A stretch of DNA of 64,000 bases, taken from Halococcus sediminicola (GTDB taxonomy: Archaea; Halobacteriota; Halobacteria; Halobacteriales; Halococcaceae). Positions 15,682 through 23,176 of this stretch are shown here, one piece after another (positions within the stretch are counted from its first letter, which is position 1; the number at the start of each line of letters is the position of its first letter). The translations under genes and the position numbers were made by a program. The stretch covers positions 434,001 to 498,000 of the forward strand of contig NZ_BBMP01000022.1 of assembly GCF_000755245.1 (NCBI RefSeq). The letters run 5' to 3'. The notes under the pieces were generated by a model. It ran no database searches, was not told where the DNA came from, and worked only from the letters and a program-made list of their open reading frames with translations.

Positions 15682-15699
15682 CCGCGGGTCGGAAGAGAG

Positions 15700-15772
15700 T
15701 AGTCCCACCAGGAGTCGAACCTGGGTCGAAGCCCCCAGAAGGCTTCAGGATTGGCCGCTACCCCATGGGACT
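15700..15772 (-). tRNA. tRNA-Gln (anticodon CTG)
   Basis: Read on the minus strand, the 73 bases fold as a full cloverleaf. The acceptor stem is AGTCCCA with TGGGACT, and the D arm is GGGT with ATCC. The anticodon stem AAGCC/GGCTT encloses loop TTCTGGG, giving anticodon CTG. The variable loop is CGACC, and the T arm CCAGG/CCTGG has loop TTCGACT. The discriminator is A and CCA is not encoded, as usual in haloarchaea. No intron is seen. It is convergent with the zinc-ribbon gene and divergent from purO. Confidence 0.95.
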
Positions 15773-16460: not shown

Positions 16461-17120
16461 ATGAACGTCGGCGTCATCGCGGACATTCATGGCAATCGGG
16501 TCGCGCTCGATGCGGTCCTCGACGACATGCTACCCGTCGATGGACTGATCTGTGCCGGCGACGTGGTGGGCTACAACCCGTGGCCCGGCGCGTGCGTCGA
16601 TGCGGTGCGCGAGCGGGAAACCCCGACCGTGATGGGCAACCACGACCGCGCGGTCGCGACCGACACGAGCTTTTCGTTCAACAGCATGGCCGGTGCCGGC
16701 GTCGCGTACGCCCGCGAGCAACTCGACGACGAGCAGATGGCGTGGCTCGCGGAACTGCCCAACGAGCGCACCGCGTTCGATGGACGAATGAAGATCGTCC
16801 ACGGCCATCCCGAGGATCCGGACCGCTACACCTACCCCGATATGTTCGCCGCGGACATGCTCGGCGACGAGGACGTGCTCGTGCTGGGCCACACGCACGT
16901 CCAACACTACGAATCGTACGACGAAGGTATCGTCCTGAACCCGGGCAGCGTCGGTCAACCGCGCGACGGCGACCCGCGGGCGGCGTACGCAGTTCTCGAT
17001 TCGGATGCGATGACCGTCACCGAACACCGAGTCGAGTACGACATCGAGAGCGTCGAGCAGGCGGTGAGCGAGGCGGGGCTACCCGACGCGATCGGGAGCC
17101 GACTGTGGAAGGGCCGCTGA
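16461..17120 (+). CDS. Metallophosphoesterase (YfcE/MJ0936-like)
   Basis: A 219-residue calcineurin-fold phosphoesterase. The metal-ligand motifs appear in order: DIHGN (8-12), GDVVGYN, GNHDRA, HGHPEDP and GHTHVQ, with the closing NPGSVGQPRDGDPRA typical of the YfcE/MJ0936 group, which are mostly Mn-dependent phosphodiesterases. Substrate is unknown. It probably shares a transcript with purO. Confidence 0.9.
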   Translation: MNVGVIADIHGNRVALDAVLDDMLPVDGLICAGDVVGYNPWPGACVDAVRERETPTVMGNHDRAVATDTSFSFNSMAGAGVAYAREQLDDEQMAWLAELPNERTAFDGRMKIVHGHPEDPDRYTYPDMFAADMLGDEDVLVLGHTHVQHYESYDEGIVLNPGSVGQPRDGDPRAAYAVLDSDAMTVTEHRVEYDIESVEQAVSEAGLPDAIGSRLWKGR

Positions 17121-17253
17121 CGCGCGTGCGCCACAAACGCGGTTGTTCTCGTCGAAATCCGGCCGGAGAGATGATCGTCTTTCCTCGAACTTCCTGAAAT
17201 TTAATAGCCTAGATACTCACGTTAACGGAGTTCTGTCCATCCGATATGGTGTA

Positions 17254-18231
17254 ATGATGGGACGTCTTTCGTTGCTGAATCAACTCGCCGCGGGGTCGAC
17301 CGAATGGCTCGAACCCGCCTTCGACTCGACGACGGGCACCGTGCGCTATCCGGGTGTCGAAGGGGACGGAGCCGGCGAGAGTCTGCCGACGGCGCTCGAA
17401 GCGCTGGCGACGCGGGGAGTGTTGGACGAGGAGTTCGACGAACGGGTCGTCGCGTGTCCGGACTGTGGATCGGGCGGCCTCGACGTCCGGCCGTCGTGTC
17501 CCAACTGTGAGTCACGGAACACCACGGCGGTCGCGGTGGTCGAACACGTCGTCTGTGGCTGTGTCAGGCCGCGGGCGGAGTTCGAGGCGGACGGGGAGTT
17601 CGTCTGTCCGAAATGCGAGAGCGAGATCGACTCGCTCGACGAGGGCTGCGAGCGGATGGGGACGATGCAGTGCTGTCGTGACTGTGGCGAGCGCTCGGAC
17701 GCGCTCACCCATCGCCTCGACTGCGCCACCTGTGGCAGTTGCACGCCCGAGGAGGCGAACGACGTCCGACTCTACCGCTATCGCTTCGACGACGACCGGC
17801 GCGATTGGCTCGAAACGCTTCTCGGCGTCAGGGAGGGCCTGACCGACGCGCTCGAAGCACGTGGATACGACGTGCGCCGGGACGTCGCCGTCGACGGTGA
17901 CGCCGGCCAACGGTACATCGATTGCTACGCCAGCGACACGACGTTCGGCGTCGAGATCGTCGCCGCCGTTCACGACGCCGTCGACGTCCAGGCCATCGAG
18001 GAGTTGCGGGCGGTCGCGGACGCGACCGGAGCGCGCCCCGTCATCGCAACCCCGGTCACGGGGCGGAACGGCGCGGCGGTGGCGCTCGCCGAAGCGAAGG
18101 GCATCACCGTGATGGCAATCGACGAAAGCGGCGCGGTGGTGGGACAGTCCCCGGTAGCCGCTCCCGCGAGCAGCGTTTCCGGACCCGCCACGGCCGCGAC
18201 GGGCGCTTCGACGGCGTCCCGGTCCCGATGA
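17254..18231 (+). CDS. Cys-rich metal-binding protein (TackOD1-like) with possible REase-fold C-terminus
   Basis: 325 residues from ATG 17254 (a second ATG follows at once). An N-terminal helical part is followed by a dense zinc-binding region at about 67-155: CPDCGSGGLDVRPSCPNC, VEHVVCGCVRP, CPKC, CCRDCG and CATCGSC. The VEHVVCG...CPKC...CRDCG order resembles the TackOD1 output domain as I remember it. Residues about 195-290 (RYIDCYASDTTFGVEIV then ARPVIATPVTG and EAKGITVMAID) look like a restriction-endonuclease fold with D and E but no clear Lys. It overlaps the next gene by 4 bases. Likely a regulator or nucleic-acid binding component of the polysaccharide cluster. Confidence 0.65.
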   Translation: MMGRLSLLNQLAAGSTEWLEPAFDSTTGTVRYPGVEGDGAGESLPTALEALATRGVLDEEFDERVVACPDCGSGGLDVRPSCPNCESRNTTAVAVVEHVVCGCVRPRAEFEADGEFVCPKCESEIDSLDEGCERMGTMQCCRDCGERSDALTHRLDCATCGSCTPEEANDVRLYRYRFDDDRRDWLETLLGVREGLTDALEARGYDVRRDVAVDGDAGQRYIDCYASDTTFGVEIVAAVHDAVDVQAIEELRAVADATGARPVIATPVTGRNGAAVALAEAKGITVMAIDESGAVVGQSPVAAPASSVSGPATAATGASTASRSR

Positions 18232-19346
18232 GTTCGCGCGCACGCGTCGTCGCGGTCTCGGTGGCGCTGCTCGCGCTCGTCACGGTCGCCTCGGTGACGG
18301 TCGGACTGTCCTCGCTCGGCGTCTCCACGGGCGACGCCACCGACGCCGGCGTGGCGACCGACACCGCCTCCGACACGACGCCGATGGCGGAAGAGGCACT
18401 CCTCGACCGCTCGACGCTCCCCGAACGGACGCCCGACGGGAGATCGTATCAATCGATAGTTATCTTCCGCAACGACGACATCCAGGGCAACTACCGCCCG
18501 GCGACGATGCGGGCGGTCGACGACATCTTCGTCGAGGAGGAGGTGCCGGTGACGCTCGCGGTCATCCCGCGCATCGGCGATCGGCCCATCACCGACAGCG
18601 AGGGGACGTGTTCGTATCTCGTCGAGACCAAACGCGCCCACCCGAAACTGTTCGAGTTCTCGCTACACGGCTACACCCACGACTCGGCGACAGAGTTCTA
18701 CGAGGAAAGCGAGTTCGGCGGTCTGCCCGCCGCCGAACAGGCGGACCGCATCGCCAGCGGGAAGCGGACCTTGGAGAACTGCACCGGTCTCACACCGCGG
18801 ACGTTCGTGCCACCGTTCAACACCTACGACGCGAACACGACCGCCGCGCTCGGCGCACAGGACATCACGACCGTCTCGGGCGGCGACTGGTTCACCGAAC
18901 AGTACTACGGACAGGGAGAGCCGTTCACGAGCGGCGGGGCCGTCCACGTCCCCTCGACGCACTCGTTCGTCGGGAACTGGACGACCGACGAGTTCCATAG
19001 TCAAGCGGAGATGCGCCGCGGGTTCGATGCCGCCTACGCGAACGGGTCGGTGTACGTCCAGATGCTCCACTACCCGACGTTCAACACTACGGAAAAGCGC
19101 GAGCGCCTGCGCTCGTTCGTCCGCTACACGAAGTCTCACGACGACGTGAAGTTCATGACCGTCGAGGAGTTCGGGCGGGCGACACACGAAGGAACGCTCC
19201 AGCGTACGTCGGAGGGGTGGTACTACGGGAACCGGAATAGTGCGACCCCCTCGGCGTTCGCGGCGAACGCCAGCGTTCGAGACGTGAACGCGACGCCCGG
19301 AGCGGTCAAGGCGAGCGAAGGCGACGGACGGAGGGCCGGGGCGTGA
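18228..19346 (+). CDS. DUF2334-type polysaccharide deacetylase-like exported protein
   Basis: 372 residues from ATG 18228 (ATGA overlap with the preceding stop). Residues 5-28 are a hydrophobic signal or anchor helix, so the rest is outside the cell. The fold resembles NodB polysaccharide deacetylases: FRNDDIQGNY carries the Asp pair, SLHGYTHDS the His motif, and RTFVPPFNTYDANT the later active-site strand. DUF2334 proteins are deacetylase relatives of largely unproven activity. It probably acts on the polymer made by the glycosyltransferase next door, a pairing like PgaB/PgaC or IcaB/IcaA. Many N-x-T/S sites fit an exported glycoprotein. Confidence 0.78.
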   Translation: MSSRARVVAVSVALLALVTVASVTVGLSSLGVSTGDATDAGVATDTASDTTPMAEEALLDRSTLPERTPDGRSYQSIVIFRNDDIQGNYRPATMRAVDDIFVEEEVPVTLAVIPRIGDRPITDSEGTCSYLVETKRAHPKLFEFSLHGYTHDSATEFYEESEFGGLPAAEQADRIASGKRTLENCTGLTPRTFVPPFNTYDANTTAALGAQDITTVSGGDWFTEQYYGQGEPFTSGGAVHVPSTHSFVGNWTTDEFHSQAEMRRGFDAAYANGSVYVQMLHYPTFNTTEKRERLRSFVRYTKSHDDVKFMTVEEFGRATHEGTLQRTSEGWYYGNRNSATPSAFAANASVRDVNATPGAVKASEGDGRRAGA

Positions 19347-20809
19347 GCCGGTTCGAGCGGGCCGCCGCCATCGTGGGCATCGTGGTCGTCTTCTGTTCGT
19401 TCGGCCTGCTGTATCTCCTGATGAACCGGTACGTGTTCTTCATCTGTGCCGGCGTCGGGGTCGTGACGGCCGCCGGGAGCCTGCTCGCGATCGCCGTACT
19501 CGACCGGACCGACAACCGCGAGGAGATGTGGCTGCTCGGCTTCTTCTATCTGCTGGCCATCCTCACCCCGCCGGTGTTCGCGTTTGCACTGTTCGACGGC
19601 GTGCTCGCGCCGCTGTCGGTCGTCTTCCTCGTCGCGCTGACGCTCGTGTTCTTCTACTACTCGTACTTCCTCCCGATTGCGCTGTTCGACGTGAGCACGA
19701 CCGAGAGCCACACCGCGAGCGCGCCGTATCCGACGGTGTCGGTGCTCGTCCCGGCGTACAACGAGGCGGGCGGTATTGGCGCGTGCATCGACGCGCTCCG
19801 GGCGAGCGAGTATCCTGAAGACAAACGCGAGATCATCGTCATCGACGACGGCTCGACCGACGGCACCTACGAGGAGGCGCTAGCACACGCCGGCGAGGGC
19901 GTGAAAGTCGTCCGCAAGCGAAACGGCGGGAAGCACTCGGCGATGAACTACGGGATGCTCTACGCCGACGGCGAGATCGTCGTCACCGTCGATGCCGACA
20001 GCGTGGTAGCTCCGAACGCGCTCGACAGGCTGGTCGGGGCCTTCCAGGCCGACCCGGACCTCGGCGCGGTCGCGGGCAACATCAAGGTCGACAACCGGGG
20101 CAGCCTCGTCACGAACCTCCAGTCGCTCGAATACATCGTCGGCATCCTCGTCTTCCGGCGGGCGTTCAGCGCGCTCGGCTCCGTGCCGGTGGTGCCCGGC
20201 GCGCTCGGTGCCTACCGCCGCGAGGTGCTCGACGCCGTGGGGCTGTACGACCCCGACACGCTGACCGAGGACTTCGATACCTCCATCAAGACGCTGAAGG
20301 GGGATTGGAAGATCCGCTCGGTCGATGCTCTGTGCAAGACCGAGGCCCCGATGACGTGGACGGACCTCTACAAGCAGCGTCTGCGGTGGTATCGGGGCAA
20401 CTTCATGACGCTCATCAAACACCGCGACGTGTTCACGAACACGCGCTTTGGCTACCTGCAGGGCGGGGTCTTCCCGATGATGCTGCTGAACCTCACGGTC
20501 GTCCCGCTCGCGGGGTTCGTCATCGTCGCCTCCATCCTCCTGCAGGCGCTCGCGGGCGAGTTCCTCACGCTGCTGTCGATGTTCGCCTTCTTCGCGCTGT
20601 TGCAGGGCCTGCTCTCGCTCATCGCGCTGTGGATGGACGGCGAGCGCGCGTCGCTCGCGCTGTACGCGCCGCTGTTCATCGTCGGCTATCGCCAGTTCAT
20701 CGATACCGTCGTGTTGAAGGCCGTCCTCGACGTGCTCACCGAGCGCGACCTGCAATGGACGAGCGCGAAACGCAGCACCGAGCGGCTTCGAGCGAGGGAG
20801 GGCGACTGA
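19343..20809 (+). CDS. Processive family 2 glycosyltransferase (HasA/PgaC/cellulose-synthase-like)
   Basis: 488 residues from GTG 19343, overlapping the previous stop by 4 bases. Two to three N-terminal membrane helices (about 7-100) precede the GT-A domain: VSVLVPAYNEAGGIG, IVIDDGSTDGT, TVDADS (metal-binding Asp), TEDFDTS (catalytic Asp) and the processivity motif QRLRWYRGN. Further membrane helices follow (about 375-455). The arrangement matches synthases that polymerise a beta-linked polysaccharide and extrude it through the membrane. The sugar is unknown. The overlapping deacetylase-like gene hints at an N-acetylated sugar. Confidence 0.88.
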   Translation: MSRFERAAAIVGIVVVFCSFGLLYLLMNRYVFFICAGVGVVTAAGSLLAIAVLDRTDNREEMWLLGFFYLLAILTPPVFAFALFDGVLAPLSVVFLVALTLVFFYYSYFLPIALFDVSTTESHTASAPYPTVSVLVPAYNEAGGIGACIDALRASEYPEDKREIIVIDDGSTDGTYEEALAHAGEGVKVVRKRNGGKHSAMNYGMLYADGEIVVTVDADSVVAPNALDRLVGAFQADPDLGAVAGNIKVDNRGSLVTNLQSLEYIVGILVFRRAFSALGSVPVVPGALGAYRREVLDAVGLYDPDTLTEDFDTSIKTLKGDWKIRSVDALCKTEAPMTWTDLYKQRLRWYRGNFMTLIKHRDVFTNTRFGYLQGGVFPMMLLNLTVVPLAGFVIVASILLQALAGEFLTLLSMFAFFALLQGLLSLIALWMDGERASLALYAPLFIVGYRQFIDTVVLKAVLDVLTERDLQWTSAKRSTERLRAREGD

Positions 20810-21915
20810 CCCAGTCCGCATCCCGACCCGAGCCGACGCGCCGGGCGTTCCTACGAGCCGGGGCGGTCGCGGGGCTGACGGTCGCCGGTGGCTGCGGGCG
20901 GCTCGGATCGGATAGAAGTCAGCCGTGGACGGTGCTCGGGGCGTATCCGGGAGCGAACCCGACGCGCCGGGCAACGTTCGGCCCGTTCGAGCGGTGGCTC
21001 GGGCGGCGACACGCGGTCATCGTCTGCTACGTCGATGCGGGCGGGGAGTCGCCGGCGGCCATCGAACGCTTCGTCGACGGGCTGACGCGGCTCTGGGAGA
21101 GCGGTCACGTCCCGATGGTGACGTGGCAGCCACGACCGCGGACACCAGAGGAGCGCCGGAATCTCACTCGGACCATCGAGCGGGGGAACTACGACGCGGT
21201 GGTCGACCGGTGGGCCGAACGGCTCGCCGCGTGGGTGCGTGCGGACCCGAATCGGCGGTTCTACTTCCGGCCGCTGCCCGAGATGAACCGTCCGGGAGTG
21301 GTGTGGGGCGGCGCGAACGCGACGCCCGCGAGCTACGTCGGCGCGTGGGTGCGCCTCCGCGAGCGGTTCGCGCGGACGAGTTTGGGGAAAGAAGAAATCC
21401 AGTGGATATGGAACCCGAACGCGACCGACGTCGGCGACGTGCGTGCCGAGCGGTACTATCCGGGCGACAGTCACGTGGAGTGGGTCGGCATCGACGGCTA
21501 CAACTTCGGCGACAGTGCGCCGTGGTCGACGTGGCAGGAGCCGGAAGCGGTGTTCGCGCCGATGGTCGAGCGCATGCGGGCACTCGCCGACAAGCCGCTC
21601 GCGATTCCGGAGTTCGCCAGCACCTCGTTGCGCGGCGGCCGGTACGAGCCACGGAAAAAGGCCGAGTGGATCGCCGATGCGTTCGCGTACGTCCGCCGCG
21701 AGCGCATCCGGATGGCGTGCTGGTTCGACATCGACAAGGAGACCGACTGGGCGGTCTTCGGCGGCGAGCGCGGAACCGACAGCTACCGCCAATCGGGCGC
21801 GCGCTATCGTGTCTACGGAAGCTACCGGCGGGCCGCGAACGAAGAACACGTTCTCGAAGCGAGACCGGCGTCCGAGGGCGTGCTCTCGGATGAAACGTTC
21901 ACCGGAACCGACTGA
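20755..21915 (+). CDS. GH26-like glycoside hydrolase, Tat lipoprotein
   Basis: 386 residues if ATG 20755 is the start, which overlaps the glycosyltransferase gene by 55 bases. No later start precedes the signal. TRRAFLRAGAVAGLTVAGGC is a twin-arginine signal with a lipobox, so the protein is exported folded and lipid-anchored. The catalytic part is a TIM-barrel like mannanases of GH26: FYFRPLPEMNRPG holds the putative acid/base Glu, and ADKPLAIPEFAST holds the nucleophile Glu. WIWNPNATDVGD and WVGIDGYNFGD are also typical of the clan. It probably trims or edits the polymer made by its operon partner. Confidence 0.75.
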   Translation: MDERETQHRAASSEGGRLTQSASRPEPTRRAFLRAGAVAGLTVAGGCGRLGSDRSQPWTVLGAYPGANPTRRATFGPFERWLGRRHAVIVCYVDAGGESPAAIERFVDGLTRLWESGHVPMVTWQPRPRTPEERRNLTRTIERGNYDAVVDRWAERLAAWVRADPNRRFYFRPLPEMNRPGVVWGGANATPASYVGAWVRLRERFARTSLGKEEIQWIWNPNATDVGDVRAERYYPGDSHVEWVGIDGYNFGDSAPWSTWQEPEAVFAPMVERMRALADKPLAIPEFASTSLRGGRYEPRKKAEWIADAFAYVRRERIRMACWFDIDKETDWAVFGGERGTDSYRQSGARYRVYGSYRRAANEEHVLEARPASEGVLSDETFTGTD

Positions 21916-21994: not shown

Positions 21995-23176
21995 TCAATC
22001 GAACGTCTCTTGAATCAGTGACAGCGCCTGCTCGCGGTCGTCCCAGTCGACGAACACCGCCACCGAGGTCGCGCTCGTGATCACGTCGTGAACGACGATG
22101 TGCTCGTCGGCGAGAGTCTCGATCATCCCCTGTGCGACGCCCGATTGGGTGGGGAGTTCGCCGCCGGTGACTCGGAGGGCGGCGACGTCCGCATCCACTG
22201 TGACGCTGGAGAGGGCGTCCTCGTCGATGACGCGCTCGTGGAGCACCGTCTCGGCCTCGGTCGCGTCCTCGGTGTAGACGTAGAAGGTGATCGAATCGAG
22301 ACCGCTCGCGGCCGCGTCGATGTTGATACCCACGTCCGAGAGTGCGCCCGACAGCGCCGCGAGGATGCCCGGGCGGTTCCTGATGGCCCGCCCGGCGACC
22401 GTGAGACACGACAACGGCATCTCCTGGAGGTCGATGAGCGTCTCGAAAGTGCCCTCGATGCTGGTTCCGCCCTGTAACAGGTCGCCGTGTTGGTAGTGGA
22501 CGACCCGAACCCCGAGGTCCGAACCCTTGTAGTTGAGCGCGCTCGGCGCGATGACTTCGGCCCCGCGAAAGGAGAGGTTGCGCAGTTCGTCGACGCTGAT
22601 CTCGGCGACGTTGCGTGCACCCTCCACGACCCGGGGATCGCCGGTCATCACGCCCTCGACGTCGGTGACGATGACGACCTCCTCGGCGTCCATGTAGTTG
22701 CCGAGCATCACGGCAGTGGTATCCGACCCGCCGCGGCCGAGGGTGGTGACCGAACCGGCGTGGTCCTCGGCGAGAAAGCCCGCGATCACCGGGACAGTGT
22801 CGCCCATCCGGTCGGCGAGCGCCTGCGCGCGACGGGTGGTCTCCTCAACGTCGACTTCTCCCCGCGAGTCGGTGACGACGGGCCAACCCTCGCCGCCGGG
22901 TTCGAGGAACTCGGCATCGACGCCGCGCGCCGAGAGGGCGGCCTTGACCATCCGGGCGGAGGTGCGCTCGCCCATGCTGACGATTTCGGCTCGATCGCCC
23001 TCCTCGGCGTCGAACTGGATCTCGCGCAGCAGGAAGTCCGTGGTGGAACCCATCGCACTGACGACGACCGCTATCTCGTGACCGGCCTCGACGGCGGCCG
23101 CGACCGAATCCGCAGCCCGGTTCACCCGGTCGCCGCTGCCCAAACTCGTGCCCCCGAACTTCGCTACGACGCGCAT
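21995..23176 (-). CDS. lysC: Aspartate kinase
   Basis: 393 residues. KFGGTSLGSG at the N-terminus and GRGGSDTTAVMLGNYMDAEEV in the middle are kinase signatures, and two ACT modules at the C-terminus (after about 260) are the allosteric region. It phosphorylates aspartate as the first step to threonine, methionine and lysine. This fits with metX, metY and thrC elsewhere in the window, although those are not adjacent. It is divergent from the small GNAT-like gene. Confidence 0.95.
   Translation of the reverse strand: MRVVAKFGGTSLGSGDRVNRAADSVAAAVEAGHEIAVVVSAMGSTTDFLLREIQFDAEEGDRAEIVSMGERTSARMVKAALSARGVDAEFLEPGGEGWPVVTDSRGEVDVEETTRRAQALADRMGDTVPVIAGFLAEDHAGSVTTLGRGGSDTTAVMLGNYMDAEEVVIVTDVEGVMTGDPRVVEGARNVAEISVDELRNLSFRGAEVIAPSALNYKGSDLGVRVVHYQHGDLLQGGTSIEGTFETLIDLQEMPLSCLTVAGRAIRNRPGILAALSGALSDVGINIDAAASGLDSITFYVYTEDATEAETVLHERVIDEDALSSVTVDADVAALRVTGGELPTQSGVAQGMIETLADEHIVVHDVITSATSVAVFVDWDDREQALSLIQETFD

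Follow-up and report, generated by a model that had tools for sequence, protein, structure and literature searches.

The combination of a polysaccharide synthase with a deacetylase and a hydrolase is already known, also from bacteria, and the pss operon of Listeria is a close known system. A further example is the ydaJKLMN operon of Bacillus subtilis, which encodes a hydrolase, a receptor for cyclic dimeric guanosine monophosphate (c-di-GMP), and three genes for the production of exopolysaccharide (EPS) (PMC13274460). Little has been learned about the synthesis and modification of matrix polysaccharides in archaea, and two of the protein families described below, DUF2334 and TackOD1, are scarce in the literature searched. 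Herein, a compact cluster of four genes from Halococcus sediminicola is compared with such systems. It is located at positions 17254-21915 of the window, meaning the whole stretch of 64,000 nucleotides that was analyzed (contig NZ_BBMP01000022.1). The genes all lie on the plus strand and overlap by 4, 4, and 55 bases, which agrees to the base with an earlier reading made from the letters alone (the sequence-only reading). Its family assignments, namely TackOD1, DUF2334, glycosyltransferase family 2 (GT2) with QRLRW, and GH26, are likewise borne out by Pfam scores above the cut-offs and by the presence of the motifs. The features are as follows (aa, amino acids):

17254..18231, plus strand: gene 1, TackOD1 protein, 325 aa, Pfam PF18551
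18228..19346, plus strand: gene 2, N-terminal membrane anchor and DUF2334 CE4-like deacetylase domain, 372 aa, PF10096 and PF01522
19343..20809, plus strand: gene 3, membrane GT2 polysaccharide synthase, 488 aa, start codon GTG, PF00535/PF13641
20755..21915, plus strand: gene 4, GH26 hydrolase, expected to be a lipoprotein with a twin-arginine translocation (Tat) signal, 386 aa, PF02156
17121..21994, no strand: inserted block with the four genes, between a metallophosphoesterase gene (MPE, ending at 17120) and an aspartokinase gene (21995-23176, minus strand)
17200..17206, plus strand: candidate promoter, TTTAATA, resembling the TATA consensus by eye, some 50 bp before gene 1

The 55-base overlap of the GT2 and GH26 genes stands because, from 20700 to 20900, the GH26 frame offers no ATG, GTG, or TTG start other than that at 20755. 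The overlapping genes, their insertion as a block, same-strand adjacency in unrelated genera, and co-occurrence support the notion that the four genes are one unit, for which TTTAATA is a candidate single promoter. This unit is probably a synthase-dependent system for a deacetylated extracellular polysaccharide that moves horizontally and follows a plan like that of ydaJKLMN.

Comparison with described synthase systems

Gene 3 matches several GT2 models of Pfam, including those listed above. It carries the motifs DDG, DADS, TED, and QRLRW (the last at residue 345), which are conserved in 41 homologues, and its hydrophobic segments fall within residues 4-117 and 375-433. Two marks of a synthase-dependent exopolysaccharide system are found in the cluster: a membrane GT2 with the D,D,D/TED,QxxRW signature and linked polymer-modifying enzymes. 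The best NCBIfam model is PgaC_IcaA (TIGR03937) with 186.6 bits, below its cut-off of 422.3, and the next model reaches 104. The CelA/BcsA model scores 71.3 bits against a cut-off of 699.1, and NodC (78 bits) and chitin-synthase-like models are matched as well.

The likeness to ydaJKLMN, drawn from the description of that operon, lies in its compactness, a membrane GT2 (YdaM), YdaL, a glycosyl hydrolase at the surface (YdaJ), and a regulatory or receptor gene (YdaK). YdaL, which we take to be a DUF2334 protein, would be the counterpart of gene 2; in the cluster, the DUF2334 gene directly adjoins a processive GT2 gene, and the PF10096 matches include the B. subtilis genome. However, the four-gene block holds no YdaK c-di-GMP receptor, YdaN subunit, or YdaJ-type hydrolase; instead, it contains the TackOD1 zinc ribbon and a GH26 protein with a Tat lipoprotein signal.

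The poly-N-acetylglucosamine (PNAG) systems pgaABCD and icaADBC share with the cluster the best-matching GT2 model, a CE4-type deacetylase partner, and a hydrolase in the export path. Here, the deacetylase is DUF2334 and not PgaB/IcaB, GH26 stands in place of the PgaB hydrolase domain, and the inserted block has no PgaA, PgaD, IcaC, or IcaD gene. The score of the PgaC_IcaA model together with these missing partners rules out membership of the pga/ica class. Cellulose and mixed-linkage glucan synthases (BcsA, RiGT2 [PMC10374906], and BgsA) resemble the cluster in that their GT2 has membrane helices and the D,D,D,QxxRW signature; here, the GT2 also has a lichenase-like GH26 neighbor. Membership of the bcs class is excluded by the low CelA score and by the fact that none of the four proteins matches PilZ or BcsB. 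A literature search for mixed-linkage glucan operons with GH26 gave no result.

A partial counterpart is present on plasmid p_TS293_4 of Deinococcus taeanensis (NZ_CP083458.1, L168 7084-10114), where a GT2 gene (33% identity) is followed by a GH26 gene (28%) with a 4-base overlap. An overlapping membrane-protein gene precedes the GT2; it appears GGDEF-like by eye, with no Pfam match above cut-off. This operon differs by having neither DUF2334 nor a zinc ribbon. A further parallel is seen in Kocuria, with a deacetylase-GT2 fusion adjoining a chitinase. In Deinococcus sp. KNUC1210 (L170 3694-7143), a polypeptide of 1149 aa combines GH18-like, polysaccharide deacetylase, and GT2 parts, and a diguanylate cyclase gene comes after it. 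The EPS genes of Haloarcula hispanica (PMC5467301, PMC9943897) are, by description, other glycosyltransferases.

The sequence-only reading had held that the component families differ from those of bacteria. This is not supported, since DUF2334, GT2, and a secreted hydrolase together match ydaJKLMN and since GT2 with GH26 occurs in Deinococcus. Compared with bacteria, the novelty lies in the TackOD1 zinc ribbon and in the fusion that joins it to the deacetylase; compared with the literature searched, it lies in the zinc ribbon partner, this fusion, GH26, and the archaeal spread.

Conservation and insertion of the unit

Among 292 Halobacteria genomes, GT2 (E up to 1e-60) was found in 38, DUF2334 (1e-20) in 25, and GH26 (1e-20) in 27. 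GT2 and DUF2334 occur jointly in 24 genomes where about three would be expected (Fisher 2.5e-24, phylogeny ignored), meaning that 24 of the 25 DUF2334-bearing genomes have GT2. GT2 and GH26 coincide in 12 genomes (Fisher 1.9e-5 genome-wide, phylogeny likewise ignored). The survey also covered 39 complete GT2 loci, with the window excluded. Zinc ribbon, DUF2334, and GT2 are joined in 19 of them, zinc ribbon, GT2, and GH26 in six, and DUF2334, GT2, and GH26 without a zinc ribbon in two (L108 and L112), while 12 contain none of the three partners. GH26 is a looser partner than DUF2334, being located inside 10 of the 39 loci. All four parts come together at L101 and L085 of the class survey and, in other gene orders, at L177 and L184 of a GTDB scan. 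A partial Pfam scan of the 12 partner-less loci revealed related Tat-type proteins directly after GT2 at two of them (L105 and L107), one matching Polysacc_deac_1.

In every linked haloarchaeal locus, GT2 and DUF2334 are encoded on the same strand with 107-655 bp between the domain ends. The GTDB scan used the deacetylase alignment as query and overlaps with the class survey, as some genomes are shared. It found 23 haloarchaeal DUF2334 loci, 20 of them with an adjoining same-strand GT2; of the other three, one is truncated where its contig ends and two have no such neighbor. A single-sequence GTDB scan with GT2 gave no matches. In a GT2 tree, made by a quick method and with several weak forks, the synthase of the window is placed among DUF2334 loci of a module clade (SH-like approximate likelihood ratio [SH-aLRT] 88, drawn open), from which nine partner-less synthases (86) are split. 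Outside Halobacteria, DUF2334 is accompanied by a divergent GT2 with the QxxRW motif in two Thermoproteota metagenome-assembled genomes, and in one of them a large glycosidase-like gene is nearby. At that locus (L199 2591-8790), the DUF2334 frame is broken in the contig and the glycosidase-like gene encodes 742 aa; it is possibly a counterpart of the unit.

In the genus itself the distribution is different. In eight same-genus genomes, the MPE and aspartokinase genes converge on a gap of 2-370 bp that holds no cluster, exactly where the window carries the four genes. GT2 was not found in the nine other same-genus genomes searched, nor DUF2334 in the seven of them that were covered. Related loci reside on plasmids of Halorubrum lacusprofundi, Natrinema thermotolerans, and Halorussus halophilus, and transposase or integrase genes lie within a few kilobases of the first two. 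The G+C content of the unit (0.675) differs little from that of its flanks (0.65-0.66). Judging from these sequences, the cluster is an accessory, horizontally moving element that was inserted as a single block and is sometimes plasmid-borne. Hence, the survey of co-occurrence proposed with the sequence-only reading has a divided outcome: the families are not conserved together inside the genus, but outside it the pairing of synthase and deacetylase, with the zinc ribbon and the hydrolase as further parts, is conserved across haloarchaea, and the one-unit view holds. A tRNA-Gln gene (CTG) lies on the minus strand at 15699-15772, on the upstream side of the inserted unit and about 1.3 kb from it.

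TackOD1, deacetylase, and hydrolase

Gene 1 matches the TackOD1 profile with 100.3 bits (cut-off 32). Its zinc module spans residues ~68-160 and consists of 11 Cys and one His, all invariant in alignment A3 (C68, C71, C82, C85, H98, C101, C118, C121, C141, C144, C157, and C160). No hydrophobic helix was found in the protein, which is predicted to be soluble and cytosolic. The C-terminal domain (about residues 176-290) resembles PD-(D/E)XK nuclease-like proteins in its AlphaFold2 (AF2) model (Foldseek: 2vld and 1y88); nuclease activity is not expected herein because no conserved E-x-K was seen. TackOD1 was described as an output domain of mainly thaumarchaeal response regulators, with 11 Cys in five CXXC plus one HXXC motif and a function called obscure (PMC5847659). 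The cysteine/HXXC pattern of gene 1 is identical, but there is no receiver domain, and the protein is tied to a polysaccharide synthase and, in other genomes, fused to the deacetylase.

This fusion is found in most loci holding zinc ribbon, DUF2334, and GT2. The zinc ribbon there precedes the transmembrane DUF2334 part in a single polypeptide, which is the arrangement in most species, in the order C-x2-C...EH-x-CG...C-x-KC...C-x2-CG, membrane helix, DUF2334 (alignment A1). In the window and in Halorussus, the two parts are separate, overlapping genes. The fusion would tie TackOD1 functionally to the deacetylase, and positive residues preceding the membrane helix would place TackOD1 on the cytosolic side. 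A second TackOD1 gene, conserved in the genus and 38% identical to gene 1 (G000:C22:222019-222531; L047 4987-5967), also has no receiver domain; it is flanked by an aRF1-like and an aconitase-like gene, with a MinD-like gene close by. This is a housekeeping setting with no polysaccharide gene in the vicinity. This copy makes TackOD1 a misleading search handle. Tandem TackOD1 genes are present at L009, L020, and L030 of genus g3 of the same family.

Gene 2 is matched by PF10096 (DUF2334) with 88.8 bits (cut-off 26) and by PF01522 (Polysacc_deac_1) with 28.8 bits. Residues D83, D84, H147, H151, and H281 are invariant in the DUF2334 alignment, leaving the D-D/HxxxH metal site intact. A PDB sequence search gave no convincing relative; the AF2 model (predicted local distance difference test [pLDDT] 82) has polysaccharide deacetylases as its best Foldseek matches (3rxz, E 6e-12; CE4 enzymes; and ArnD). 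The domain thus models as a CE4-type deacetylase with a NodB-type fold and a retained metal site. A helix at about residues 2-33 is the only one, so the protein is predicted to be anchored by it with the domain facing outside. The sequence-only reading called this protein exported; the outward orientation is kept, and free export gives way to a membrane anchor.

Gene 4 scores 31.7 bits with Glyco_hydro_26 (PF02156; cut-off 20.2). A Tat lipoprotein is expected from RR at 29-30 and lipobox Cys47, and Glu176 and Glu286 align with the two catalytic Glu of the lichenase CtLic26A, the closest PDB entry (E 2.6e-26 over 287 residues); signal and catalytic residues had both been recognized from the letters. 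The GH26 motifs are conserved in 12 synthase-linked copies. The acid/base Glu stands in the context RPLHEANG in CtLic26A, RPLPEMN in gene 4, and APEMN in the Deinococcus copy, and this replacement of the preceding His by Pro may have shifted the specificity. Since the conserved PEMN replaces the motif of CtLic26A, no substrate is assigned. The hydrolase assignment of the sequence-only reading is therefore retained as GH26, closest to a lichenase, while the reading as a mannanase is weakened. Gene 4 has its three closest GH26 homologues in genomes that carry GT2 and DUF2334, and none of these belongs to its own genus. Genomes of this genus (g1) contain three to six GH26-like matches each without GT2 (e.g., G000:C22:612085-614114 and 46098-46769); some of the matches lie in long open frames (1000-1350 codons), and some form divergent or convergent pairs. 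The plasmid-borne actinobacterial GH26 relatives examined have no GT2 beside them, and therefore GH26 alone is no marker of such systems.

Proposed pathway and competing readings

The unit, its families with intact catalytic motifs, the fusion, the co-conservation, and the insertion are given by the sequences; extrusion, deacetylation of this polymer, the parts played by hydrolase and zinc ribbon, and the polymer chemistry are proposed as follows. The membrane GT2 would polymerize a nucleotide-sugar and by itself push the chain through the single membrane, like HasA/PgaC-type synthases. Beside the exit, the anchored DUF2334 protein would use metal-dependent chemistry of the CE4 type to strip off N-acetyl (or O-acetyl) groups, and the product would probably be a partly cationic, hexosamine-containing polymer. 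The exported GH26 lipoprotein may cut this polymer and set its length or release. Cytosolic TackOD1 would work with deacetylase and synthase as an assembly subunit or switch; in other species, it forms the head of the deacetylase inside the cell. Synthase, outward deacetylase, outward hydrolase, and cytosolic partner would make up a minimal system suiting a single-membrane cell.

More tentatively, an archaeal class of synthase complexes can be imagined, in which cytosolic TackOD1 is an integral subunit with a transmembrane link to the deacetylase outside the cell. Taking the role of c-di-GMP receptors, TackOD1 might respond to a cytosolic signal such as zinc, redox state, or a nucleotide and couple polymerization to deacetylation of a mobile matrix polymer. 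If true, this would be the first function for TackOD1 and the description of a mobile haloarchaeal matrix polymer. Fusion and co-conservation assign DUF2334 and TackOD1 to one pathway, and the compact, transferable unit occurs in strains that can be cultured, among them Halorubrum lacusprofundi ATCC 49239 (plasmid pHLAC01), which open the polymer and a possible c-di-GMP-free control to direct study. In this strain, HLAC_RS15980 encodes DUF2334 and HLAC_RS15975 encodes GT2.

Several points weigh against the synthase-dependent polymer system. The Fisher tests take no account of phylogeny, and a clade of nine GT2 relatives has none of the partners; these synthases can act alone or serve another use there. 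GH26 is missing from most loci and is separately abundant in this genus. Known GH26 activities are directed at mannan, glucan, and xylan, a poor fit with a hexosamine substrate.

A sub-case with other chemistry is a mixed-linkage or mannan-like polymer, in which GH26 would mark the polymer as a β-1,4-rich glucan or mannan and DUF2334 would remove O-acetyl groups. The relation of gene 4 to CtLic26A and the overlapping GH26 and GT2 pair of Deinococcus speak for it. However, GT2 fits PgaC far above BcsA (187 versus 71 bits), PilZ is not matched, GH26 is less constant than the other partners, and the His preceding the acid/base residue is Pro in both the window and Deinococcus, so that this chemistry is rather unlikely, if worth keeping in mind. 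The product could also be a short secreted or lipid-linked oligosaccharide, made by a NodC/NodB-like synthase and deacetylase, or a glycoprotein glycan, with no long matrix polymer. The NodC and chitin-synthase-like matches would agree with this, the operon is tiny, and chain length is not revealed by sequence. Yet the PNAG synthase model is by far the best (187 bits versus 104), the unit contains no oligosaccharyltransferase, acyltransferase, or flippase, and an endo-acting GH26 lipoprotein better suits a polymer, which makes such a product improbable.

That GH26 and the deacetylase degrade environmental polysaccharide, with GT2 an unrelated neighbor, draws on the GH26 genes common in the genus without GT2; it is highly improbable given that GT2 is the most constant neighbor of DUF2334, that there are 4-base overlaps, and that the unit lacks genes for transport or catabolism. 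A structural cell-wall polymer, suggested by the sequence-only reading and fitting a synthase with modifying enzymes, is largely ruled out by distribution: GT2 was missing from the nine other genus members searched and DUF2334 from the seven of these that were covered, and the unit is an accessory one, inserted between core genes here and plasmid-borne in other genera.

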